From assembly GCF_003002875.1 (NCBI RefSeq), contig NZ_PVTH01000005.1:62001-126000 (forward strand): a stretch of 64,000 nucleotides of DNA, read 5' to 3'. Position 1 is the stretch's first letter. The number at the start of each line of letters is the position of its first letter. This document shows, piece by piece, positions 37,450 to 52,534 of the stretch. The stretch comes from Arcticibacter pallidicorallinus (lineage in GTDB: Bacteria; Bacteroidota; Bacteroidia; Sphingobacteriales; Sphingobacteriaceae). The notes beneath the pieces were generated by a model. It did no database searches. It saw nothing but the letters and a program-made list of their open reading frames with translations, and was not told the DNA's origin. A program made the translations under genes and the position numbers.

Positions 37450-40400
37450 TTATCTCCCTTTAATTAATTCAACTTCATCTTCTGTCAACTCGTAGAGTCG
37501 GATAACTAATTCGTCTATTTGGCATTCAAGATCGATGATGTCAGACTTCGGAGTTTCTTCTTTTTTTGCCAGAATACTATCAACTAAATTTTCTATTTCA
37601 TCAGTTATTTGGTTTCTGACATTTGGAAGCGCGAATTGCTGTATATCTCGAATCATAATTTGGGGAAACGTATCTGAGTCCGCAATCTGAAACTTCTTCC
37701 TAAAATACCAACCAATAAACTTTGAGTTTAAAATACCAAGTAATGCTTTGTAGCTTATTTTCGCCGAACCTGGTTTTAGCTTCAAGACAAATAACAATGT
37801 ATTGCAATAAGATGTATATGGTATGTAATTGGCAATTAAAGTTTTACCTGTTATTTTTCTTATCAGAATTTTTTCCCCATCAAAATTTTCTGGAATTCGT
37901 GGAGCAGCTAACCATGCACCATAGTGAATCCAATTATTGTTTTTCCAAAATAAAGAGTAGTGTCCGATATCTTTTCCGTCAAAAAATGGCAACCAATCTG
38001 GCGTTTTCCTTTCTTTTGATGTAAAAGGTTTGGTGTCCCGTGTTTCAGCTGTTTGTGCGGGTTTACCTTTTCCAACTTCATACGCTTTTATGCCTGAAAA
38101 CATTTCGGTAAAGCTCTCTACATGCGAAAATTCCTTATCAATCCTTGAAATGATTTTTAACTCATTTGAGTTACTTTGGACATTGAAACTATTTGTGTCA
38201 TACCAAATTTTACTGCTAATTTCAAAGCTACGAATTGGATTATTTAAATTTTGCAGTTTATTTTTCTTATGAAAAATATTTACCAGAACGTCCTGCTTAT
38301 TGTAATCTCCATTTGAAATATTTTTTTGAAAGAATAGTAAAATTGTATCAACGGCAGCATCGTCAAACACATACGAAGGCAACAAATCCACTTCACAAAT
38401 TTTTGTATTTTTCAACACATATTTTCTTATTGTTTCTGTAAATCCAAGATTTAACATCGTATCAGGAATTATAAAACTAAAATGCCCCGATATATTTAAG
38501 ATTTTAATCGCCCTTTCAACAAACAAAACATAGCTTTCTCCTCGAAGGTTGAAAGTGTCAAATTCATTTTCAAAAAACATTCCGTTCTCTTTATTGAAAT
38601 TCACACCATACGGTGGATTCCCTATCACCACATCAAATCCTACAAACTCACCCTCACCATTCAATACCTCCGGAAACTCAAAGCGCCATTCAAAAGCGTT
38701 TTCGAAAATCTTATTAGTTTTGATCTCCTCAATTTCGGTTTCCAGTTTTTTTGTATCAACAGTGAGTAGGTCTACTTTTTTATTCCACTCAGCAGCTTCC
38801 TTTTTGTTCTTTTCAAAAAGCTGAACTTGATTAGTCATCTGAAACAACTCGCCCGATAGCTTTCTTAGCTTCTTTACTTTTGGATCAATTAGAGAAATCT
38901 CACTCCGGAAATCGGATTTGATATCGGCTATCAAGCGTTCCATTTCTTTTTTCTGATCCTTGCTTTTCGCATTCCTGTAGGTGTCTACGGCGATTCGGTA
39001 ACTGTCAATCGTCCATTTACTTTTTTTCAGTGCCTGTCTGAGATCAGAATCGAGAGCAAATCGGCTCACTAATGAATTACCACATTTGATATTGATATCG
39101 ATATTAGGAAGTGTTTCCAATTCAGCCGCGTTTTTATAGTAAGCGTTCTTCAATAATTCTATCCACAAACGTAAACGACATATCTTGACTGAATTCTGGT
39201 TAATATCTACGCCAAAGAGGCAATTTTCGATAATGTTTTGCTTTTCATGGAATAGCGTTTCCTGTATGCGCTGGCTTTCCTTGTTCGTAGGATTGTATTC
39301 AAAAAGATCTCCTTCTTCATCAGTTACGATTAGTTCGTCGTTCACTACTGTAACCTGGTATTCTTTCAAACGTTTGCCACTTCGGTCCTGCAAGATTTTC
39401 AAATCGTTCTTTACAGAAATCATTTCATTAAGTGCGGACACTAAGAAGTGACCAGAACCCACGGCGGGGTCACAAATCTTAATGCTATTTACAATAATGT
39501 TTGCTTCGTTCCGATCTTCTATTTTATTGTATAGCTCATTGAAGTTGACGCAGTTCCAATTCTTAGTCTCATTGAATTTTTGAACAATCGCCTTACGGAT
39601 GGTTTCACGGCACATATACATTGTGACGAATCCAGGGGTAAAGAAAGAGCCATCTTTATAACCGTTTATTTTTTCAAAAATAAGTCCTAGGACCGAGGCA
39701 TTGACAAGAGTTTTGTTATCCTCTTGTATTTCTTCGGAACCATCGCTGCTAAAATCATAGGCATTTAGAAACTCAAACAAATACTCTAAAGTAGACAAAC
39801 TGCCTGTCTGTTTTTTGCCCTGCTTGTCTTTCAATACGGTAGTGGAAATTATTGGGATGGTTTTATCATCTTTCAGGTTACTGATGAAAAGAGTAACCTG
39901 CTCCATTTCCGTAGGTTCGAAAAGCGAGCTATTTAAATAAGGTACTTTTTCATACAGCTGCTTTATATCGTTATTTCTTTCTTCAAATCGCCGCGCGAGT
40001 ACCTGGAAAAACAAAATATTTAGATCATCATATTCCTTTATACGGTCCTGATTTAGAAACGAGTACGACTTATCGCCTTTGTGATAAGAAATGAGCTGCG
40101 CTTCTAACAGTTTGAGAAATAAAACTCGGTTTATCCAGGTGATTGAAAGTTCAAGTGCAACGTTGAAAAGTCGCTCCTGATGGGTACTTCCATATTGGCT
40201 TGGTCTGTCTAATCGACTAATTTTATCCAGACTGTCCAGCTGAATGATTGCATCCTCCAGGAGACTGCCAGAATTTCGTTGTCCTTCTTTGTTCCGTCCT
40301 ATAATCTTTTTGCCGCCTTCTTTCGATTCTGATAACCCAATAATATGCAACAATTCACTGTAAAAGCGTTTGTCTAAGGTATTGCTATCGTTGGTAAAGG

Positions 40401-41115
40401 GAAGTTTTAAAAGATGTTCAGGGGATAGGAGTTTGAATAAAGAGATGAGCTTGTTATCATCTTTTTGGTCGGCATTCCTGAGCGGTTTTTCATAGTCGCG
40501 GATGTCGAAGTAAGTAAACTCAATTTCTTGACTGATACAGCCAATAAACGGGTCGGCAATTTCTTTATAGAAAAAGTCGGTAGTCTTCCCCGCTAATCTT
40601 CCACTTTCAAAATCATCAAATTGCTTTACCAAGCCTTTGTTTTGGGCAAAAAGCTTTTCGAATATGTTGGCATCAAAAACAAACCATTCATTAATATTAG
40701 TAACAACCAGGTGCTTTACTTCCAGATTTTTATGGGTGATTCGCTCGCGTAGATAATAAAGTATCAGTTCGTGAAATGCTTTGGTATTTATGTTGTCTAC
40801 CCTCAGCATTTCTGATTTGTTAATGGGGCTTTTCGCCTCAATAATAACACCTACAGCACTCTTTGCTGTCTTATCGTTATGGATCACCAGATCGTTTCTA
40901 TGCTTTGTGTTTATATAGAAGCGGGTGTTATAATACGTATCGTGAAGAAATTTGGATATGATGTTTTTATGAAATTCTTCCGATTCCTTGATATCGATCT
41001 GATTTATCAGGCTGATCAGATTTAATTTAAAGGTTTCAATTTGCTCTCGTTGAGGTTTTACTTTTCGGAATGCTAAATTTAATGCTTTACTAGGTTTCAG
41101 TTTGGTTAATCTCAT
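37450..41115 (-). CDS. Eco57I-like single-chain (type IIG) restriction-modification enzyme
   Basis: A 1221-residue enzyme combining cleavage and N6-adenine methylation. The N-terminus has a PD-(D/E)xK nuclease pattern with Asp75 and Glu93-x-Lys95 (IIEAKSP). The methyltransferase core contains the SAM-binding motif DPAVGSGHFLVSA near residue 550 and the catalytic NPPYG near 832. The C-terminal 300 residues are a target-recognition region (TAETRDTKPF and SYKALLGILNSKF-type segments). No separate methylase or specificity subunit is next to it, as expected for type IIG. The recognition sequence is unknown. It is flanked by the AbiE pair and Detocs. Confidence 0.88.
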   Translation of the reverse strand: MRLTKLKPSKALNLAFRKVKPQREQIETFKLNLISLINQIDIKESEEFHKNIISKFLHDTYYNTRFYINTKHRNDLVIHNDKTAKSAVGVIIEAKSPINKSEMLRVDNINTKAFHELILYYLRERITHKNLEVKHLVVTNINEWFVFDANIFEKLFAQNKGLVKQFDDFESGRLAGKTTDFFYKEIADPFIGCISQEIEFTYFDIRDYEKPLRNADQKDDNKLISLFKLLSPEHLLKLPFTNDSNTLDKRFYSELLHIIGLSESKEGGKKIIGRNKEGQRNSGSLLEDAIIQLDSLDKISRLDRPSQYGSTHQERLFNVALELSITWINRVLFLKLLEAQLISYHKGDKSYSFLNQDRIKEYDDLNILFFQVLARRFEERNNDIKQLYEKVPYLNSSLFEPTEMEQVTLFISNLKDDKTIPIISTTVLKDKQGKKQTGSLSTLEYLFEFLNAYDFSSDGSEEIQEDNKTLVNASVLGLIFEKINGYKDGSFFTPGFVTMYMCRETIRKAIVQKFNETKNWNCVNFNELYNKIEDRNEANIIVNSIKICDPAVGSGHFLVSALNEMISVKNDLKILQDRSGKRLKEYQVTVVNDELIVTDEEGDLFEYNPTNKESQRIQETLFHEKQNIIENCLFGVDINQNSVKICRLRLWIELLKNAYYKNAAELETLPNIDINIKCGNSLVSRFALDSDLRQALKKSKWTIDSYRIAVDTYRNAKSKDQKKEMERLIADIKSDFRSEISLIDPKVKKLRKLSGELFQMTNQVQLFEKNKKEAAEWNKKVDLLTVDTKKLETEIEEIKTNKIFENAFEWRFEFPEVLNGEGEFVGFDVVIGNPPYGVNFNKENGMFFENEFDTFNLRGESYVLFVERAIKILNISGHFSFIIPDTMLNLGFTETIRKYVLKNTKICEVDLLPSYVFDDAAVDTILLFFQKNISNGDYNKQDVLVNIFHKKNKLQNLNNPIRSFEISSKIWYDTNSFNVQSNSNELKIISRIDKEFSHVESFTEMFSGIKAYEVGKGKPAQTAETRDTKPFTSKERKTPDWLPFFDGKDIGHYSLFWKNNNWIHYGAWLAAPRIPENFDGEKILIRKITGKTLIANYIPYTSYCNTLLFVLKLKPGSAKISYKALLGILNSKFIGWYFRKKFQIADSDTFPQIMIRDIQQFALPNVRNQITDEIENLVDSILAKKEETPKSDIIDLECQIDELVIRLYELTEDEVELIKGR

Positions 41116-41172
41116 TAAGATATCGTTTATTTTTAAAGATAGTAGTTTTCATTAGGTTTCTTTTTAGTTACC

Positions 41173-42162
41173 TCAAAGTTCGATCTTCCATTCGATTCTT
41201 TCTATTCGGTTTTTTAAGAAAAGCATACTACCTTTTATCGATTCGATTTTTGGTAATTGGCCATACACCAATGGCCGAAATTCTTCAATATAAACGGAAG
41301 ACAACTCGTTGAAGACCTCATCAATTTCGCTGAAGAAATAGGCCTCATTCGGGTGATGAATAAGCCATTGGTTATTATTCCTGAAGCTTCTAACATCATC
41401 CTGGGCTACTTTTAGCAGCATATCGTCAAAAGCTGAAGAATTGACAAAAGAACAAAACTCTTCCAATTGAAGCAACTGATGAAGATCGTAAGTATGTCTT
41501 ACCTTTTTCTTGAGTGCTACAAGAGGCTCTCGTTCATATGAAAAACGAACTAAGCTCATTACCTTTTCACAAATTGTACGAATAGGTTCCAGTACACGAA
41601 CTTGGAATTCCTTCATATCGTACTCTTCAATTAAATCGAATTGCTGCGCACTTTCCATCATCGCCCCAATAAAGGAATTGATATTACTCGTGGTGTATGG
41701 CTCATAATAGCCTAACCATGACGATTCTAAAATGATTGAATCACGTACTTGCCCGTAATCACCCAGAAATTGTTTGCTATAAGTATGAGCAGTCTTTCTG
41801 TTCATACCCATTTTTCTCGTGACATTGTCAATTGCCACTTCTGGCAATGTGCCAGCAACGAGTAAGCTAATATCTTTTAATTTCCTTTTTAGTTTGTTGT
41901 CCGTCTCACCTTTGCGCCTTAGTACAACTAGATCAATGTCCTCAGAAAACCGTTCTATTTCGCCGTAACACTTCGATAAAGCAGTCCCGCCTTTAAAAAC
42001 AACGTCCTCTCCTATTTCATGGGAAAAGATTTGAAACAGGGCGTAGGTAACCCAGTAGTCTTTTTCAACATAAATATCAAGAATGGACAATCGTTGAGAC
42101 GTAAATCTGACTGCTTGTTCAAACAATCTTTTATTTTCATGCAATCTCATAGTAGGTTCCAT
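41173..42162 (-). CDS. AbiEii/AbiGii-type nucleotidyltransferase toxin
   Basis: A 329-residue protein with the nucleotidyltransferase signature VFKGGTALSKCYGEIERFSEDIDLVVL (Gly58-Gly59-Thr60, with Asp75 and Asp77 as metal-binding acids). This is the AbiEii type IV toxin family, which can add nucleotides to tRNA acceptor ends and stop growth. An EKDYW motif at 34-38 precedes it, as is typical. It overlaps its cognate antitoxin gene by 16 bp, so the two are translated together. The role is abortive infection or element maintenance. Confidence 0.9.
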   Translation of the reverse strand: MEPTMRLHENKRLFEQAVRFTSQRLSILDIYVEKDYWVTYALFQIFSHEIGEDVVFKGGTALSKCYGEIERFSEDIDLVVLRRKGETDNKLKRKLKDISLLVAGTLPEVAIDNVTRKMGMNRKTAHTYSKQFLGDYGQVRDSIILESSWLGYYEPYTTSNINSFIGAMMESAQQFDLIEEYDMKEFQVRVLEPIRTICEKVMSLVRFSYEREPLVALKKKVRHTYDLHQLLQLEEFCSFVNSSAFDDMLLKVAQDDVRSFRNNNQWLIHHPNEAYFFSEIDEVFNELSSVYIEEFRPLVYGQLPKIESIKGSMLFLKNRIERIEWKIEL

Positions 42163-42872
42163 TTATAAGGATCACCAGTCTCTCTTTTTAACTCTTTAAA
42201 ATTATACTTAGTAATAGGATTCAATGTCCGTAAGAGTGTGTTAGCTTCGTCATCAAATCCCAAATCGTCAATTATTGATCCTAATAAGGCTCTTGTCGAG
42301 GGTGGATACTTCATCGACAGTCGAACTGTTTTATGGATCTCTTCATCCATAAAATCCTTAAAAATTGACCGAATTCGCGTATAGCTGAACGCAATGGATG
42401 CACCTGGTATCTTACGGATGTTTCTGATCGCATCTAAGATTTGTAACAGTGGAATATTGTCTCTGGTTATGGTGTTTTTTTGTCTGATGAATGAAATGGT
42501 ATATTGATCTCTTTTGAATGTATGTCGAACGGAATTTGCTCCGATTTGAATTATATTAGCAACTTGGGTCGTCAATTTAAGCTCGTTATAATTACTATAA
42601 CCCGTCAAATAACCAGTAATCTTTCCGTTTTCTTCTAATAAGTCCTTCACAATTTCTTTTTGCGAAGGCTTCAGCTGTCCAAAAGGCGTTTCTTCCGGCT
42701 TAAAATATTTCCCTTTGGTTAGTTTTTTAATATTGCCCGAAGCAACCATTCTGTTTAAGGCTTTGATAACTGCTTCTTTCTTATTCACCTCCGTAGTAAA
42801 GTCCTTATAGGTGAAAACGAAGCCTCGAGGAAGCCTATCTATCTTAAACGATATATAATCAGTTACTTTCAT
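42147..42872 (-). CDS. AbiEi-like antitoxin (DUF6088 family)
   Basis: A 241-residue protein. The N-terminal 70 residues are a winged helix-turn-helix domain (LPRGFVFTYKDFTTEVNKKEAVIKAL...), followed by the DUF6088 core, including KGKYFKPEETPFGQ and GYLTGYSNYNELKL. DUF6088 proteins are paired with AbiEii toxins and repress their own promoter. A 56-bp perfect palindrome starts 16 bp upstream of the start codon. The gene ends inside the toxin gene. Confidence 0.88.
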   Translation of the reverse strand: MKVTDYISFKIDRLPRGFVFTYKDFTTEVNKKEAVIKALNRMVASGNIKKLTKGKYFKPEETPFGQLKPSQKEIVKDLLEENGKITGYLTGYSNYNELKLTTQVANIIQIGANSVRHTFKRDQYTISFIRQKNTITRDNIPLLQILDAIRNIRKIPGASIAFSYTRIRSIFKDFMDEEIHKTVRLSMKYPPSTRALLGSIIDDLGFDDEANTLLRTLNPITKYNFKELKRETGDPYKWNLL

Positions 42873-43700: not shown

Positions 43701-44876
43701 CTAGCGTTTACGTCGTCTTTTTCTCTTTAGTTCGTCATCGTCTATGTCGTAAGCAGATGCACCACCAACAAAGCCGCTAATATTGCTAATAGCGGCACCA
43801 GCAACGTCAAGAAACTGATCACGATTAGCCTTTTCATCTTCAGATATTCTCTCTTCGTTTCCAAAAGTTCCTGAAGTATTGCCGCTTGGCTCTGGTTCGT
43901 CTCCATTCCTTTCAATTCGCTGATCGCCTCGTGAATAATCTGTTGATTCTGCATGATGGTCTTTTGTCCGTTCCCAAGAACCATCATCCCTTTTTTGATG
44001 TCGTTCGTCTCCTTTAGAAAGCAAGTCCGCAAATCGTACTCGTGTTCGACTGTTTGCTTCGTAAATTGCCTTGCTGTCTGTGCTTTGTTCATATTGAATT
44101 CTATTTGATATGTTATTCCATTTATACATATTGCCGAGCTTTTGGCCTTTTGCCATAAAACCGTTGTCCATAACGTAGGTTATCCCAGAAATTCTGTCTG
44201 TGGTTGTTGATTGGTTAAAAAGCAAGTAAACTCCTAGTTCCTGACATTTTCGAATAAAACTTGCTACAGAGTCGGACTGATTCAAGGCTAACTTTACTTT
44301 TTCTTGCATCAGCATTCTATCCGAAGGCTTTCCGGTTCGTTGTACCATCTCCAATTCATCCTTGTTTGGCGCACGATCCTGGGCTTCATCAGACGAGCGT
44401 ACAACGGCTAAGCCGTATTTTTGCTCTATACGCCGACAAAGTGCCTCACTGTGTTTGTAGTTATTGGAATCAGAAACTACAATGGCTTTGCCTTCATTAA
44501 ATCCGATTCGTGTCAATAGTAAATGAACGTGTACATGTTCGTGATCCTCACCATCATTGTGTCTCCAAAGAGCGAAGTAGTTTGCGTCGGGATCGAAGCC
44601 CATTCCCTGCATATAATCTTTAGCAATCGAAACAATACGTTTATTATCTAAAACATCCTCCTTGGCAAAACTCAAAGCCACGTGATACCCATCATTCTTT
44701 ACATTCGGTTTAAGCTGCCTGAGCAACTCCACATCCGCCATGATATCACTTCGATCATATTTAAGGAAATTGTGGGCAAGCACTTCTGCTTGTTCTTTAG
44801 GATCAAGTAGTTCGGTTTTCTTGTGGTTGTAATCAAATGCCGTTTTAAAGCTGTGTACTTTTTGAATAGCGATCAT
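43701..44876 (-). CDS. Relaxase / mobilization nuclease
   Basis: A 391-residue relaxase. The N-terminal 250 residues are the nuclease domain, with the metal-binding histidines His112/114/116/118 (DHEHVHVHLLLTR) and an N-terminal Tyr near 16 as the probable nicking residue. It cleaves one strand at oriT and stays attached to the transferred end. The C-terminal 130 residues are low-complexity and polar (Asp/Glu/Ser-rich, then KRKRRRKR). The overlapping frame of that tail encodes a second protein (43742-44092). The gene overlaps mobC by 4 bp. Confidence 0.9.
   Translation of the reverse strand: MIAIQKVHSFKTAFDYNHKKTELLDPKEQAEVLAHNFLKYDRSDIMADVELLRQLKPNVKNDGYHVALSFAKEDVLDNKRIVSIAKDYMQGMGFDPDANYFALWRHNDGEDHEHVHVHLLLTRIGFNEGKAIVVSDSNNYKHSEALCRRIEQKYGLAVVRSSDEAQDRAPNKDELEMVQRTGKPSDRMLMQEKVKLALNQSDSVASFIRKCQELGVYLLFNQSTTTDRISGITYVMDNGFMAKGQKLGNMYKWNNISNRIQYEQSTDSKAIYEANSRTRVRFADLLSKGDERHQKRDDGSWERTKDHHAESTDYSRGDQRIERNGDEPEPSGNTSGTFGNEERISEDEKANRDQFLDVAGAAISNISGFVGGASAYDIDDDELKRKRRRKR
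43742..44092 (-). CDS. Overlapping gene inside the relaxase tail: coiled-coil/TM protein
   Basis: A 116-residue frame starting at an ATG (44090-44092), wholly inside the relaxase gene but in another reading frame. It encodes a polar, coiled-coil-prone stretch (residues 30-85, KTIMQNQQIIHEAISELKG) and a C-terminal membrane helix (about 89-113, LIVISFLTLLVPLLAIL). A random alternate frame rarely gives this kind of ordered protein. ColE1 mbeB/mbeD and RSF1010 mobB are established examples of mobilization genes nested in relaxase genes, and MobB is membrane-associated. I propose the same role here: anchoring the relaxosome at the membrane. Confidence 0.6.
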   Translation of the reverse strand: MNKAQTARQFTKQTVEHEYDLRTCFLKETNDIKKGMMVLGNGQKTIMQNQQIIHEAISELKGMETNQSQAAILQELLETKREYLKMKRLIVISFLTLLVPLLAILAALLVVHLLTT

Positions 44877-45211
44877 ATTGAGATAATTTTAGACCTCAAT
44901 ATTTTCAGCATGGAGCTCAACTCATTGATAACGGCAGTGTCGATGGCAGTAAGCCTACCTTGATGTACAGCTTTGACATACTGATCCATGTTGACACCAA
45001 TTTTTCTTAGCTCATAGTATGTATTGATATCAAGCAAGGGAGATTGTGCCTTGGGAAAACTATTTTTCATCAATAGCCGTCTAAATACATCTGGCGCATG
45101 CGTTCGGCAATCAGTCAATACCTGGTCCAGCCTCTCCTTTTCTTTCGTATTTAGGCGAATCTTAATTTCATAGATTCGCTTATCTTCAATGGGTAGTTTT
45201 TTATCTTTCAT
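44873..45211 (-). CDS. MobC-like relaxosome accessory protein
   Basis: About 112 residues from the ATG at 45209-45211; a GTG at 45292 overlapping the primase stop would add 27 residues. The N-terminal stretch RIYEIKIRLNTKEKERLDQVLTDC resembles a ribbon-helix-helix DNA-binding motif, and the rest is helical. These MobC-type proteins bind oriT and help the relaxase to nick. A strong hairpin sits immediately upstream of the ATG. It is in one operon with the relaxase. Confidence 0.75.
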   Translation of the reverse strand: MKDKKLPIEDKRIYEIKIRLNTKEKERLDQVLTDCRTHAPDVFRRLLMKNSFPKAQSPLLDINTYYELRKIGVNMDQYVKAVHQGRLTAIDTAVINELSSMLKILRSKIISI

Positions 45212-45240
45212 AACTGAATGAAGTGAGGTTATTGTATGTT

Positions 45241-45280
45241 GGAGCAAGCGTGCAGAGTCCCTCTGCACATGGCTTGCTCC
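45241..45280 (-). other. Candidate oriT hairpin upstream of the mob genes
   Basis: A 17-bp arm GGAGCAAGCGTGCAGAG at 45241-45257, a 3-nt loop, and the complementary arm CTCTGCAC...GCTTGCTCC at 45261-45280, interrupted by a 3-nt bulge (45269-45271). There is no T-tract on either strand, so it is not a simple terminator. Position just before mobC and relaxase fits an oriT or relaxosome binding site. Confidence 0.5.
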
Positions 45281-45288
45281 ACTACGAT

Positions 45289-46149
45289 TCACATAGGTTT
45301 CCCTAGCAAATAATCATTTAGATCCTTGTAGCCTTTATATTTTCTTCGGTAATCAAAAAAGGAAATTTCATTGGCTTTTGAATAATTCTCTATCAGTGAA
45401 GTGGCTCTATCGCCTGCAAGGTCATTGTCGAGAAAGCAAATGATCCGGTTATTATTTTTTAGGAGATGATAAATACCAGCAAGATTGTGAACAGAATTAA
45501 GAACGCAAAGGTCATGTAGTCCGACCTGCTTGGGATAAAGCATAATAAAGCTTAAAAGATCCATTATTCCTTCTGTCACTATAATACTCATTCCGATATT
45601 GTGGGAATAAAAAGTCACACCCTGTTTTGTGGCACATTTAAAGTTTTGAGAACTGATATTATATCCATCATTAATGTTTTTGGTTGCTATGCCGCGGTAA
45701 ACTATACCGTTCATTTCGTAAGATATGCCAGATACATAATCACATGCCTTGCTAAATTCAATACCTCGGCTTTCTAGGTAGGTACAAGCTCCTGGACAAT
45801 TTCTCAATGGTTCAGTTTTAATAATTTTAATTTTGCTTGCAATCGGCAGCTTGTTATTTCCTTCAAGCTGGTGAAAAGAAAAAATACCTTTGTTAAAATC
45901 AGCAACAATTTTAGATACGGTATAATCTGGATTTAATTTCAAAATTAAATCTATCAGTGTACCACCCTCATTGATCCCAAAATCAACCCACAGATTTGAG
46001 CCTATTGAAACTTTAAAACTAGGCGTCTTTTCTGCAGGTCTTATTGGGGAATAATACATGTAGTAGCCATTCATTTTTCGTTCTGGTTTGATGGACATAG
46101 TGTATAGGTAATCCACTATGCTGCTTTTATTTATTTCTCGGGATGTCAT
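45289..46149 (-). CDS. Toprim-domain primase of the mobile element
   Basis: A 286-residue protein with an N-terminal domain of the CHC2 primase type (MYYSPIRPAEKTPSFKVSI). The zinc-binding Cys/His residues are not in their usual positions, so the finger looks degenerate. A central segment contains CPGACTYLESRGI. The Toprim domain has Glu193 (VTEGIMD) and Asp241/Asp243 (FLDNDLAGDRA). Bacteroidota mobilizable elements often carry such a primase for priming transferred DNA or replicating the circular form. The gene follows VapE after a repeat-rich gap. Confidence 0.85.
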   Translation of the reverse strand: MTSREINKSSIVDYLYTMSIKPERKMNGYYMYYSPIRPAEKTPSFKVSIGSNLWVDFGINEGGTLIDLILKLNPDYTVSKIVADFNKGIFSFHQLEGNNKLPIASKIKIIKTEPLRNCPGACTYLESRGIEFSKACDYVSGISYEMNGIVYRGIATKNINDGYNISSQNFKCATKQGVTFYSHNIGMSIIVTEGIMDLLSFIMLYPKQVGLHDLCVLNSVHNLAGIYHLLKNNNRIICFLDNDLAGDRATSLIENYSKANEISFFDYRRKYKGYKDLNDYLLGKPM

Positions 46150-46201: not shown

Positions 46202-46325
46202 ACCTACTACACCTACTACTTACTACATATTTGTAGTGACTTATAGTAAGTAAAAATTCATAGGCTTACTACATTATAACAACTTGTTATACAAGTATTT
46301 ACAGTTAGCTGTAGTAAGTAGTAAG
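46202..46325. repeat. Iteron-like repeats between the VapE and primase genes
   Basis: ACCTACTAC is repeated in tandem at 46202-46210 and 46211-46219, followed by TTACTAC, with inverted copies (GTAGTGA, GTAGTAAG) and a final GTAGTAAGTAGTAAG at 46311-46325. A near-perfect palindrome TATAACAA-C-TTGTTATA is at 46275-46291. The gap is very AT-rich. It could be an origin or a regulatory region for the primase. Confidence 0.5.
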
Positions 46326-47507
46326 AGGATTGTATTTAATTAGGTAACCTTTTACAGGATATTTCTGATTTTCATGACCTCTTCTTTGCACTTGTTCGAA
46401 ACCAAGGATCTTTAGGGCCTTTCCAACTTCAACCGGATTGATTTTTAACTTCCCTTCAATGTTGGTTGTTAAATGCTCAACCAAATCAGTAGCAGTATAA
46501 AATTGTTGGTAATCATCACTTGATCCAGGCGAATAATATTTTTGTATCAATTCCATCTCTACAGTAAAGGTGGTATGCTGGTTATTTGAAATCTCATTTT
46601 CCTTAATTTCAGCTGGTGTCATTTCATATTTAAAACCAGTACGGTATAGGTAATAAGCCTGAGCCCAAACAGCATTGATGTCGACTTCTGTTTTATAATT
46701 CCAATTGATTTTTTTTATATTAAAACATAGCCACCTGACACTGCCTGATTCATCATTTAGAAATTCAGTTCTGTTGGTTGATCCAATGATTGAGGCTCTT
46801 CGCGGCTCCATTTTAGGCTTCCTATCATATGGGTGCCTAACCTTGATATATGATTTACTCATCAAAGTTTTTTGTGCATTGATTTCTGTTTTAGAGAGGG
46901 TAGAGAGTTCATCTTGAATGATTATAAAGTTTTGGCAAAGAGCGATGAGGCTGTCTTTATCAACCGCTATATTTTCTGCCTGATAATTATAAAGTTCATC
47001 TGGTATTAGAAAACGAGTTAACGTCGATTTCCCGCTATTTTGTTCTTCTTGTACAAGTGTCAGTGCTTGCTTATTGAAATAATCATCAATCAATGCGCAA
47101 ACTACACACCTAACAAGCCATTTCTTAAATTGAATAGAGAACCTTTCCTGATTCTCTACTTCTATATACTGCGAAAATTTTTGTATATGATCTTCTTTGA
47201 ATTCCTTAAATCTCCTTTCTAAGCTTTTGAAATACTCTTCGAATGGGTTTACTTTAACGATGTAATCCGAGCTTAGGAATGTATTTATTTCGCTGACAGT
47301 TGTTCTTTTGCCAGCCTGCCTTACTTCTATGTATAGAGTATTAGGATTTACAGGCAGATAAGTATTCTGATTTTTTAGACTTATCATAACCTCGTTCAAA
47401 ATGATGTTATTTAAGAAATCATATTTTTCAAATAAAAACTTGATCATTTCAATGGTGCTACTTTTACTCTCTGATTCGCCTAAATTATAGCATGGTCGTG
47501 TATTCAT
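46305..47507 (-). CDS. VapE/VirE-family ATPase (SF3-helicase-like)
   Basis: A 400-residue protein of the VirE/VapE (virulence-associated E) family. The Walker A motif is EEQNSGKSTLTRFL with Gly159-Lys160-Ser161, and the sensor-like segment is GSTNRTEFLNDESGSVRWL. These proteins resemble SF3 helicases and accompany the primase in phage-inducible islands and mobilizable elements, where they probably act in replication initiation. It sits upstream of the primase on the same strand. Confidence 0.85.
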   Translation of the reverse strand: MNTRPCYNLGESESKSSTIEMIKFLFEKYDFLNNIILNEVMISLKNQNTYLPVNPNTLYIEVRQAGKRTTVSEINTFLSSDYIVKVNPFEEYFKSLERRFKEFKEDHIQKFSQYIEVENQERFSIQFKKWLVRCVVCALIDDYFNKQALTLVQEEQNSGKSTLTRFLIPDELYNYQAENIAVDKDSLIALCQNFIIIQDELSTLSKTEINAQKTLMSKSYIKVRHPYDRKPKMEPRRASIIGSTNRTEFLNDESGSVRWLCFNIKKINWNYKTEVDINAVWAQAYYLYRTGFKYEMTPAEIKENEISNNQHTTFTVEMELIQKYYSPGSSDDYQQFYTATDLVEHLTTNIEGKLKINPVEVGKALKILGFEQVQRRGHENQKYPVKGYLIKYNPLTTYYS

Positions 47508-47617: not shown

Positions 47618-47950
47618 TTATTTTTTCAAGAGTTTTCGTTCCTCCATTTGTTTCTGAAGTTTAGGAGTAAGCTTCTTGTTATTGGCTAGCCATTCAAGAA
47701 TCTCTTCTCTTTTGTAAATCAATGGCGTTTCAGAAGAATATATAGGTATTGAACCTCTAGAGTTATAAGAATAAATAGTGGTAAGCTCCACACGAGCCAA
47801 TTCAGCCACTTCGGTGGTATCCATGAATTCAGATACTGTGGGATTGAAGTTTACAGCCTCCTTTACATGATGAAAGTTTTGCTGCATATTAAGTAATATC
47901 TGCTCGATATGACTCAATCTCTGGTCTAGGGTAATAAAGGGATTTTCCAT
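47618..47950 (-). CDS. Excisionase-like helix-turn-helix protein
   Basis: About 110 residues from the ATG at 47948-47950; the frame opens further upstream without a good start. A MerR/excisionase-type HTH (FMDTTEVAELARVELTTIYSYNSRG, about residues 40-65) is followed by PLIYKREEILEWL, as in the HTH_17 family. Such proteins act as recombination directionality factors or regulators of the integrase and replication genes. Two 15-bp direct repeats lie about 50 bp upstream. Confidence 0.8.
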   Translation of the reverse strand: MENPFITLDQRLSHIEQILLNMQQNFHHVKEAVNFNPTVSEFMDTTEVAELARVELTTIYSYNSRGSIPIYSSETPLIYKREEILEWLANNKKLTPKLQKQMEERKLLKK

Positions 47951-48001
47951 ATTGCAAAAAATTTGTTTCTGCAATACTATAGCCCTCACAGCTCGGAAAA
48001 G

Positions 48002-48979: not shown

Positions 48980-50113
48980 CTAGAATTTAATTTTATTAGC
49001 AGCATCAACCTTCTTTGAATTAATCACCTTAGCATAAATTTCCGTTGTCTTAAGATGCTGATGTCCAAGCATTTTTGATACAGTATAAATATCCTCTCCA
49101 GAAGAAAGAAGCAATGTAGCATTAGTATGTCGAAAGCAATGAAACGTAATATCTTTATTTATTCCAGCCCTTAAAATCCAATTTCTGATTTTATTATTAT
49201 TATGTGCCGAATATTTTAACCCTTGAAAAACCTTTGCGTTTTGTTCTTTATTTGGTTCACCAAGTTCCAAAAATGCATCTTTACTAATTGGTAAAGTCTC
49301 ATAGGTTTTAACCTTTTTTTGAAAATACCTAATAAAATAACCCAATTCTTCCGTATGATGAATTTGCCCCCATTCTAATGCAACACAGCTCGACCACCGC
49401 AATCCCGTTCGGATGGAAAACATACCTGCTTTAAAAAGTAATTCATTGTCCAAAGGAGTGTTCTTTAGTCTTATTACCTCTTCAATAGTCAAAAACTCAC
49501 GGAAGGTTTCGGCTTGCGGAAACGACTTTATGTTCCGTAATGGGTTATCCTTAATAACCTTATCTTCAAATGCTTGGTTAATACTCGCTCTAAACTTATT
49601 AAAATAACTATATTTTGAATTGGCCGATAGTTTTGATCCTGCTGATTTGATAGTGGTAGTTGTGTCCAAATACTCCTTAAAATCTTTACAAAATCGTTCA
49701 TTCACCTGAGAGGCCAAGCAGCTTCCATTCGTGAAACGTACTACATAATTATAAGTCGAAAGCCAGTTATCATAATTTCCTTTTGATGTGTAACGCTTTT
49801 TTACGATACTTTTGAAATACTGCAGAAAATCTAAGTCTTTATTTGAGATGGAGGGCATACCGAGTCTTTCACTAAGAAACTCAAGCTGGTATTCATTTTC
49901 TATCTGCCTAGCTTTGATCATTGTAAATTTATTATGCTCTCGTTCCATCTTGTTTGCTGGTTTTTCGAAGACATATAAATCCATAAACTTCCGCCTAGTA
50001 TCCTTCTTTTTCTTTTCATCGTAAATAGCCGGATAAAAATCCAGGTATAAACTAGTCCTTCCCGACTTGTTCTTTTGTTCCCTTAAAGTAACGCGTATAG
50101 ATTTATCTGTCAT
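48980..50113 (-). CDS. Tyrosine recombinase integrase
   Basis: About 377 residues from the ATG at 50111-50113 (a TTG at 50122 also opens the frame). The N-terminal arm-binding part (residues 1-90) is followed by a core-binding SAM-like domain (about 95-190) and the catalytic domain. The catalytic residues are Arg239 (TGLRWSS), His325 and Arg328 (HCFRHT), His351 (LGHQHLKTTEIY) and Tyr360. It catalyses integration and excision of the element. It stands at the right end next to mnmE, transcribed away from it. Confidence 0.92.
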   Translation of the reverse strand: MTDKSIRVTLREQKNKSGRTSLYLDFYPAIYDEKKKKDTRRKFMDLYVFEKPANKMEREHNKFTMIKARQIENEYQLEFLSERLGMPSISNKDLDFLQYFKSIVKKRYTSKGNYDNWLSTYNYVVRFTNGSCLASQVNERFCKDFKEYLDTTTTIKSAGSKLSANSKYSYFNKFRASINQAFEDKVIKDNPLRNIKSFPQAETFREFLTIEEVIRLKNTPLDNELLFKAGMFSIRTGLRWSSCVALEWGQIHHTEELGYFIRYFQKKVKTYETLPISKDAFLELGEPNKEQNAKVFQGLKYSAHNNNKIRNWILRAGINKDITFHCFRHTNATLLLSSGEDIYTVSKMLGHQHLKTTEIYAKVINSKKVDAANKIKF

Positions 50114-50144
50114 AATAATCAACTCCTATTGTATTTGTATGTTT

Positions 50145-50301: not shown

Positions 50302-51663
50302 TTATTTCCCAATACAAAACTTCGAAAAAATATTATCCAACAAATCATCAGTTGTCACCGCCCCTGTTATCTCCCCCAAATAATACAAAGCCTGTTTGAT
50401 ATCCATAGCCAAGAAATCCGAAGTTACAGGGTTATCCAACCCATACAGAACCCTTCCCAGCGCCTCCTCAGTCTTCTGCAGCGCCTCCACATGGCGAATA
50501 TTGCTTACAATAACATCATCATTGCTAATCTTATGCAGATTCACTTTCCTCAAAATCTCACCCTTTAACTCCTCGATCCCCTCCTTCTCCCTGGCGGAGA
50601 TAAAGTTCAACCCAAAGCCATCCAGTGAATCAATCAAAGACAGATCAAGAAGATCCTTTTTATTTACAATGCCAACAAACGGAATACCGAGTACTTTCAG
50701 TTCCTCCAACTGCTCGTTAATCTCCTCCTGCGCCTGCACCACCGGATCAAACAAGTACATAATAAGTTTCGCCTGCTTCATCTTCTCCCGGGTCCGCTCC
50801 ACCCCTTTTGCTTCAATGATATCAGCGGTCTCGCGGATCCCTGCGGTATCGATGAACCGGAATACCACGCCTTTGATCGACATCTCGTCCTCAATAGTGT
50901 CGCGCGTAGTGCCCGCGATTTCCGATACGATGGCGCGCTCCTCATTCAACAGTGCGTTCAGCAGAGTTGATTTGCCAACATTGGGCTTACCCGCAATGAC
51001 CACCGGTACACCATTCTTCATCACATTTCCCTGCTCAAAGGAACTGATCAGACGATATAGCACCCTGTGAATCTTGTTAATCAGATCGCGCAACTGATCT
51101 CTGTTAGCAAATTCAACATCTTCTTCTCCAAAGTCCAGCTCAAGCTCGATCATGGAAGCGAAATGAATAAGTTGTTCCCTTAAAACCTGCAGTTCATTGG
51201 AAAAACCTCCTCTCATCTGCTGCATAGCCACCTGGTGTGAAGAAGCAGAGTTGGAAGCGATCAGATCGGCCACGGCTTCTGCCTGCGAGAGATCCATCCC
51301 TCCATTCAGAAAAGCCCGCAGAGTAAACTCTCCTGGCTTAGCGGCGCGCGCACCGGTTCTAATGAGCAGTTTAATAATGCTCTCAATGATGTACTGCGAT
51401 CCATGCGTTGAGATCTCTACAACATGCTCCTTGGTGTAGGAGTGCGGACCTATGAAGAGAGATACGAGTACCTCATCCAATATTGCCTCTCCGTCACGGA
51501 TGGTACCGAAATGAATCGTATGCGAAGCCTGTTTTGCGAGGCTCTTCCCTTTGAATACTTTATCTGTTATCGTAATAGCTTCTGGTCCCGAAAGGCGGAT
51601 AACCCCTATTGCTCCACTTCCGGAGGGGGTGGCCAATGCTACAATAGTATCGTTGTTTGTCAT
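50302..51663 (-). CDS. mnmE: tRNA uridine-5-carboxymethylaminomethyl modification GTPase MnmE
   Basis: About 453 residues from the ATG at 51661-51663 (MTNNDTIVALATPSGSGAIG); the frame extends a few codons further upstream. It has the N-terminal folate-binding domain, helical domain and G domain, with G1 GKPNVGKSTLLNAL, G3 DTAG and the C-terminal FCIGK, whose Cys is essential for tRNA modification. With MnmG it installs the cmnm5 group on U34. The 3' end is intact, but the integrase element sits directly downstream, as with SGI1-type islands that use the 3' end of this gene (trmE/thdF) in Proteobacteria. Confidence 0.95.
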   Translation of the reverse strand: MTNNDTIVALATPSGSGAIGVIRLSGPEAITITDKVFKGKSLAKQASHTIHFGTIRDGEAILDEVLVSLFIGPHSYTKEHVVEISTHGSQYIIESIIKLLIRTGARAAKPGEFTLRAFLNGGMDLSQAEAVADLIASNSASSHQVAMQQMRGGFSNELQVLREQLIHFASMIELELDFGEEDVEFANRDQLRDLINKIHRVLYRLISSFEQGNVMKNGVPVVIAGKPNVGKSTLLNALLNEERAIVSEIAGTTRDTIEDEMSIKGVVFRFIDTAGIRETADIIEAKGVERTREKMKQAKLIMYLFDPVVQAQEEINEQLEELKVLGIPFVGIVNKKDLLDLSLIDSLDGFGLNFISAREKEGIEELKGEILRKVNLHKISNDDVIVSNIRHVEALQKTEEALGRVLYGLDNPVTSDFLAMDIKQALYYLGEITGAVTTDDLLDNIFSKFCIGK

Positions 51664-51673
51664 GATGGTGCTA

Positions 51674-52534
51674 TTAGAACTTTTCTTCAATGCCCAACCC
51701 GAAAAGGGCAAAGTCGTACCGTACAGGATCCATCGGATCGAACTCCAGCAGATGCTCTGTCAATTCAACTGCTGTCTGCCAATCGGTTTGTTTCCTGGTG
51801 ATTAAACCCAGCTTTCTGGCTACACGATCGACGTGCAGGTCGCATGGGCAAATAAGTTGCGAGGGACTGATCCTGTCCCAGAGTCCAAAGTCTACTCCTT
51901 TGTCGTCTTTCCTGACCATCCAGCGCAGGAACATATTTAAACGTTTACAGGTCGACTTCTGCGATGGGGAGCTAACATGCTTGATGGTACGCCCTGGAAA
52001 ATCGGGAAGGCTGAAGAAGTACCTTCTGAAGTGATTGAGTATGACTTCGACCCGGTGCTCCGTCGTATTCAGTGCCATCATGGCGCGGACTGCCTGCTGA
52101 TCTTCATTCTGCTCTACAGGATGCTCGCTGAACTCAAAAAACCGACTGGTGCGCGATGGTAAAAAAGCGTCTTCCAGAGAGTCGAAGCGGGCATAATGCT
52201 GTCTGAAGAAACTCACGAAGTATAAGAGATCTGTATCGTTGAACGTGCGGTGCTTAAAGCCGAGTAATGACTTCAGGTCTTCATCCTGATGACCGGTGAT
52301 AAACGCATAGGGAGTGCCCGACATACGCTCTATCAGCTCGTTGCACTTATTGATGATCGTCTTACGCTGCCCCCAGGCGAGTATCGCCGCGAAGAAGCCC
52401 ATGATCTCGATGTCCTGCCTGACGCTGAACTGATGAGGTATCACAATGGGGTCGTTTTCAATGAATGAAGGCTGATTATACTGATCAGCCTTCATATCCA
52501 GAAACGACTTTAAGTCTTGTCTGTTCAATTCCAC
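51674..52534 (-). CDS. TIGR02757 family protein
   Basis: A 286-residue protein from a GTG start. Family signatures include DPIVIPHQFSVRQDIEIMGFFAAILAWGQRKTIINKC and, near the end, a VDFGLWDRISPSQLICPCDLHVDRVARKLGL segment. The C-terminal region resembles HhH/DNA-glycosylase-like folds, but no activity is established. It is 10 bp from the mnmE start on the same strand, so they are probably co-transcribed. The gene is common in Bacteroidota. Confidence 0.88.
   Translation of the reverse strand: MELNRQDLKSFLDMKADQYNQPSFIENDPIVIPHQFSVRQDIEIMGFFAAILAWGQRKTIINKCNELIERMSGTPYAFITGHQDEDLKSLLGFKHRTFNDTDLLYFVSFFRQHYARFDSLEDAFLPSRTSRFFEFSEHPVEQNEDQQAVRAMMALNTTEHRVEVILNHFRRYFFSLPDFPGRTIKHVSSPSQKSTCKRLNMFLRWMVRKDDKGVDFGLWDRISPSQLICPCDLHVDRVARKLGLITRKQTDWQTAVELTEHLLEFDPMDPVRYDFALFGLGIEEKF

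Follow-up and report, generated by a model that had tools for sequence, protein, structure and literature searches.

Our results indicate that the relaxase gene of a mobile element in Arcticibacter pallidicorallinus carries a second gene in its +1 reading frame. The window, i.e. the whole 64,000-nucleotide stretch of DNA that was analysed, contains at 43742-44092 on the minus strand an open reading frame of 116 residues that lies entirely within the relaxase ORF (43701-44876, minus strand), and comparison with related sequences indicates that it is a real, selected protein-coding gene. We consider it probable, at roughly 80%, that this is a genuine nested gene of an integrative mobilizable element (IME) and that its product is a helical, tail-anchored, MobB-like relaxosome accessory protein.

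The nested frame, its host gene and its predicted product

The nested ORF begins at nucleotide 784 of the relaxase gene with an ATG at 44092 and ends with a TAG at 43742-43744, which bears out, in exact coordinates, the claim of a preliminary description that an alternate frame of 116 residues lies in the relaxase tail. The host gene encodes a relaxase of 391 aa that matches PF03432 (2.2e-26; MOBP type, HxHxH motif). Its conserved domain (approximately residues 1-281) is followed by a tail under loose constraint, which covers the nested gene, and, past the nested stop, by a basic C-terminus, ELKRKRRRKR. The segment just past the nested stop (43701-43741, minus strand) reads as an acidic-then-basic tail, DIDDDELKRKRRRKR. 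A basic C-terminus, defined as at least 6 K/R in the last 20 residues, was found in 73 of 77 relatives, and this end of the protein resembles a C-terminal transport signal. The nested stop falls 11-34 codons ahead of the relaxase stop in nearly all relatives, which leaves room for this basic C-terminus.

Alignment of the nested proteins showed a start motif, MNKxETAxQLAKQTxEQ, followed by a variable polar middle and a C-terminal membrane helix; in the form MSKTETxRQ, the start motif in part mirrors the conserved relaxase motif YEQxRD of the other frame. The alignment and a structural model delimit a soluble, predicted helical N-terminal part (residues 1-88; 43829-44092, minus strand), and hydrophobicity, charge bias and the model place the predicted membrane helix at residues 89-114 (43751-43828, minus strand), after a basic KREYLKMKR. 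The clean C-terminal membrane helix of the preliminary description is evident here, with a 19-residue Kyte-Doolittle mean of 2.82 and a hydrophobic stretch that reaches almost to the C-terminus, and it is conserved among relatives. AlphaFold2, run with 38 homologues, predicted two helices (residues 3-66 and 68-115) with a mean pLDDT of 84.5 and a pTM of 0.32, so that the fold is settled for the helices only. In 61 of 76 nested proteins, the net charge was greater on the N-side of the membrane helix than on its C-side, which suggests a tail-anchored membrane protein with a cytoplasmic N-terminus. Searches of the nested Bacteroidota proteins against Pfam, NCBIfam and PHROG gave chance-level matches only, and in a PDB profile search the nested protein hit nothing but coiled-coil and membrane chains of a generic kind (best E 0.017).

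Selection in the alternate frame and the internal start

An open frame of this kind could be a chance by-product of codon use in the low-complexity relaxase tail, and its length would fit such an origin: when the codons of this gene were shuffled synonymously, 983 of 5000 shuffles (20%) yielded a +1 ORF of equal or greater length. Length alone is therefore not significant, and the case for a gene rests on the comparison of relatives. This comparison used raw counts, uncorrected for multiple hits, from 30 non-overlapping, independent sequence pairs, with kinship handled by the choice of pairs only. Position 1 of the relaxase codon corresponds to position 3 of the nested codon. The differences at relaxase codon positions 1, 2 and 3 made up 23, 15 and 63% upstream of the nested gene vs 47, 28 and 26% within the overlap. 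In bins of 20 codons, the nested start was marked by a fall in position-3 change from ~0.2-0.4 to ~0.08-0.13 per codon; inside the nested gene, change at position 1 climbed to ~0.2 per codon. The positional switch coincided with the first bin inside the nested gene, and past the nested stop it reverted (142, 118 and 311 differences at the three positions). The depression at synonymous sites that had been proposed as a check was thus found, with synonymous change in the relaxase dropping approximately threefold exactly at the nested start. A similar shift was seen when the window was compared with Pedobacter jejuensis, its nearest relative (relaxase 76% identical), with 30, 12 and 16 differences inside the overlap vs 39, 32 and 109 outside it.

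To estimate dN/dS, each change was classed in both frames (NN/NS and SN/SS), with a bootstrap interval. The nested frame gave a dN/dS of 0.28 (bootstrap 0.23-0.33) by NN/NS and 0.22 by SN/SS, vs 0.70 or 0.55 for the relaxase within the overlap under the two classings, so that, of the two, the hidden frame is the better conserved there. In the control region upstream of the nested gene, the +1 frame gave a dN/dS of 0.77 or 0.85 and the relaxase one of 0.12-0.13; the polar, loosely constrained relaxase tail that had been described from the sequence is in keeping with the increase of relaxase dN/dS from this value to 0.55-0.70 in the overlap. Purifying selection in the alternate frame exceeds what constraint on the host frame would impose, as is required of an overlapping gene. 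Altogether, the positional switch, the sliding profile, the nested dN/dS of 0.28 and the conservation of the start and membrane helix over 68 Bacteroidota sequences refute a chance by-product, and we regard its probability as negligible.

The start of the nested gene is built on a relaxase codon. The last two bases of the Tyr262 codon (TAT; 44091-44093, minus strand) and the G that follows form the nested ATG. The conservation of the ATG at 44092 had been singled out for checking, and the codon that supplies it was invariably TAT (81 of 81 aligned relaxases, with or without a called nested ORF). Three other near-invariant tyrosine columns were mixed (TAT:TAC of 32:46, 53:25 and 48:26), as were all other tyrosine codons (570:444). 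A +1-frame stop lies 1-5 codons ahead of the nested ATG in 46 of 76 homologues, and translation must therefore start at or near this ATG. Bacteroidota mostly do without Shine-Dalgarno runs, and in their sequences the leader before the nested ATG was AT-rich (0.76 A+T vs 0.57 background); a Shine-Dalgarno-like run preceded the ATG in 7 of 8 homologues from outside this phylum.

These observations also bear on whether ribosomes might instead shift from the relaxase into the +1 frame, which would yield a relaxase with a membrane tail and would need no independent initiation. The window sequence itself would permit this, since 29 codons of open +1 frame precede the ATG, but the stops just upstream in the 46 homologues led us to reject a programmed frameshift fusion. 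The near invariance of the ATG and its TAT codon and the Shine-Dalgarno-like bases in the non-Bacteroidota sequences likewise speak against a frameshift, which we consider very improbable.

Conservation and relation to known nested mobilization genes

A first search of 200 related genomes yielded 11 other relaxases of the same close clade; in all 11, the +1 ORF was present, opened with an MNK/MSK motif and carried a membrane helix at its C-terminus. When the scan was widened to 85,000 species genomes, it yielded 76 loci, nearly all with the nested ORF, and removal of duplicates left 83 distinct relaxases of the clade. The +1 ORF was found at the same place in 79 of these 83, and a hydrophobic 19-residue stretch was present in 76 of the 79 nested ORFs, mostly 0-10 residues from the C-terminus. 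Stops or frameshifts in the alternate frame of relatives, which would have counted against a gene, were absent from almost all of them, and the ATG and membrane helix were conserved. By this comparison, the nested gene is near-universal in a large Bacteroidota group. The exceptions were of several kinds. One locus (L088) had a broken relaxase and an intact nested frame, three (L047, L076 and L095) were apparently frame-shifted, and L101 had a nested form of 101 residues without the membrane helix. Two others retained the relaxase, with the nested ORF lost (L092) or reduced to 64 aa without the membrane helix (L094); thus, the nested gene is not strictly indispensable.

In a relaxase tree of 86 sequences, the nested gene was distributed across two large Bacteroidota clades, which include Sphingobacteriaceae, Cyclobacteriaceae, Chitinophagaceae, Flavobacteriaceae and others, and across Bdellovibrionota and Pseudomonadota lineages; the deep order of this tree is unsure because of long branches. 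Further out, a gut-derived locus (L123) and two cyanobacterial loci (L125 and L128) had +1 ORFs with similar starts, that of L125 without a membrane helix, and five loci (L126, L127, L129, L130 and L117) were without such an ORF. The relaxase gene of the Leptolyngbya plasmid (L128, 1504-3321) contains two serial +1 ORFs, of 191 aa and then of 68 aa with a membrane helix, a pair suggestive of a split nested MobB.

The parallel that the preliminary description drew to RSF1010 mobB and ColE1 mbeB is apt, as both are in the +1 frame of their relaxase genes, at nt 748 and 688, respectively, vs 784 here. MobB stabilizes the relaxosome and is membrane-linked. In RSF1010, mobB occupies a different frame within mobA/repB, and mobilization requires each of MobA, MobB and MobC (PMC2200642). 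According to the title of Parker and Meyer (2007), cited in PMC3297438, the transport signals of the R1162 relaxase need MobB. The MobB proteins of IncQ1 plasmids (RSF1010/R1162; PF17511) resemble the window protein in nesting just past the relaxase domain (nt 748 in IncQ1, 742 in Plesiomonas and 784 here). In pCHE-A and others, MobB is a protein of ~136 aa and one of three mob proteins, and it shares with the window protein a helical character and a membrane helix near the C-terminus. Unlike the window relaxase, which belongs to PF03432 and has no primase fusion, the IncQ1 relaxase belongs to PF03389 (MOBQ) and is fused to the RepB primase. ColE1 MbeB (PF04837) is also nested, in mbeA, a PF03432-type relaxase gene, and has one hydrophobic helix; unlike in the window protein, this helix is central and a long C-terminal part follows it, and ColE1 has a second internal gene, mbeD.

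Sequence searches did not place the nested protein in either family. PF17511 (Mobilization_B) gave no match above its gathering score to the window protein or to 12 homologues, and an hhalign comparison of 68 Bacteroidota proteins with IncQ MobB gave a probability of 12% over 13 columns, which is not significant. The Bacteroidota nested proteins had no match to MbeB_N (PF04837), against which ColE1 MbeB itself, as a positive control, scored 3.6e-22, and their profile-profile comparison with MbeB was not significant. The MobB reading therefore rests on position and architecture, and judged by its position, frame and size and by its membrane helix, the nested gene is most likely a positional counterpart of mobB, short of proven membership in the family.

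A closer link is offered by a Plesiomonas shigelloides plasmid (NZ_CP027855), whose PF03432 relaxase is homologous to that of the window (31% identity over residues 1-281, E 4e-27) and whose IncQ-type MobB (WP_008168805.1) starts at nt 742 of that relaxase gene, likewise nested in the +1 frame and on the same tyrosine codon as in the window. This MobB starts with MSKTETLRQ and, unlike the window protein, matches PF17511 (3.7e-13). It also differs, as does the MobB of the Serratia plasmid NZ_OQ821182, in having a RepB-fused relaxase and approximately 30 residues past the membrane helix. These Plesiomonas and Serratia plasmids (L116 and L120), which combine a PF03432 relaxase, an IncQ-like nested MobB and a RepB primase, were classified as non-mobilizable by MOB-suite. 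Because the Plesiomonas and IncQ1 plasmids share MobB and primase under two kinds of relaxase, either the module has been rejoined to different relaxases or there was one common ancestor. We tentatively suggest, with the odds somewhat against it, that the nested gene arose long ago and has been inherited vertically throughout a whole branch of MOBP relaxases, with the same origin as RSF1010 MobB; such a branch would span Bacteroidota, Bdellovibrionota, Pseudomonadota and some cyanobacteria.

A real and expressed nested gene might also serve another role, such as entry exclusion, control of the amount of relaxase or an unrelated membrane function. The lack of a sequence match to PF17511 or MbeB_N would allow for this, small helical membrane proteins vary widely in function, and the NCBI name for the second nested ColE1 gene product (MbeD) is 'mobilization/exclusion'. 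However, across Bacteroidota, Bdellovibrionota, Pseudomonadota and some cyanobacteria, the nested gene is always tied to a relaxase gene, at the same place and in the same frame, and its Plesiomonas representative is a MobB of the IncQ type. We therefore regard another role as unlikely and favor the MobB-like accessory.

Another clade of Bacteroidota PF03432 relaxases, distinct from that of the window, is without the nested gene; in most of its members, a distinct gene of 180-240 aa lies directly downstream. Its product is helical-looking with one membrane helix, which in the examples set against the nested protein (L015, L017, L019, L025 and L030 among them; 180-220 aa) differs in lying mid-protein. 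Such a gene followed the relaxase at L013, L015, L016, L017, L019, L022, L023, L025, L026, L028 and L030, and it is possibly an un-nested functional counterpart.

Hidden mob genes were already known from the proteobacterial plasmids RSF1010 and ColE1; what is new is a Bacteroidota branch of such size without a matching family model. A search of Bacteroidota plasmids for close relatives with an annotated nested gene found none that were close. In agreement with the earlier statement that no described case was known for Bacteroidota elements, the open-access papers searched gave no previous report, although one may still exist.

The probable mobilizable element and the proposed role of the nested gene

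The relaxase gene is the last of an operon, all on the minus strand, in the order VapE-like helicase domain protein (46305-47507, profile match), Toprim primase-like protein (45289-46149, profile match), MobC/NikA-like relaxosome protein (44873-45292, weak matches to MobC_2 and NikA-like) and relaxase. The primase, MobC/NikA-like and relaxase genes are joined by successive 4-base overlaps, the last of which sets the MobC/NikA-like stop over the relaxase start. An excisionase-like HTH_17 protein (47618-47989, minus strand, profile match) and a tyrosine integrase (48980-50122, minus strand) lie beyond; the integrase adjoins the 3' end of mnmE (trmE; 50302-51711, minus strand). The title of a report on Vibrio (PMC7449626) names mnmE (trmE) as a site that serves islands there as well. 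No att repeats of at least 13 bases were found around the mnmE end within the window. The proteins examined, a subset of the window ORFs, included none of a secretion system. We read the relaxase operon, the integrase beside mnmE and this lack of secretion genes as an IME, which would depend on the secretion system of a helper. In the same genome, the one coupling-protein family searched was absent, and the one Bacteroidota Tra family searched gave no match, nor did its controls. The cargo next to the mobilization genes (37450-42872) is likely a defence load: it encodes a restriction-modification protein of 1221 aa of the Eco57I/TaqI type, together with an AbiEii toxin and its DUF6088 partner.

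We propose that the nested gene would be translated in the cell independently of the relaxase, from the internal ATG built on the invariant Tyr262 codon, and that its product would be a helical cytoplasmic protein inserted by its tail into the inner membrane. There, it would contact the relaxase, probably by binding the relaxase-MobC-oriT complex, and would contribute to mobilization by holding this complex at the membrane beside the coupling protein of the helper element's type IV secretion system. A comparable membrane role is thought to hold for RSF1010/R1162 MobB.

Mobilizable elements far outnumber those that have been studied, and nested genes are generally suppressed by gene-finding programs. 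Bacteroidota IMEs of a whole group probably possess a relaxosome membrane anchor that has gone unrecognized, and this is relevant to the way in which IMEs exploit the secretion systems of other elements. The pair is also an unusually clean natural case of long-lived overlapping genes in bacteria, with the hidden frame under the stronger selection, and a silent TAT to TAC change could separate the nested gene from the relaxase. If the tentative suggestion of an ancient origin were true, relaxase and nested anchor would form one evolutionary unit, and many relaxases annotated as 'stand-alone' would be missing a transfer gene.
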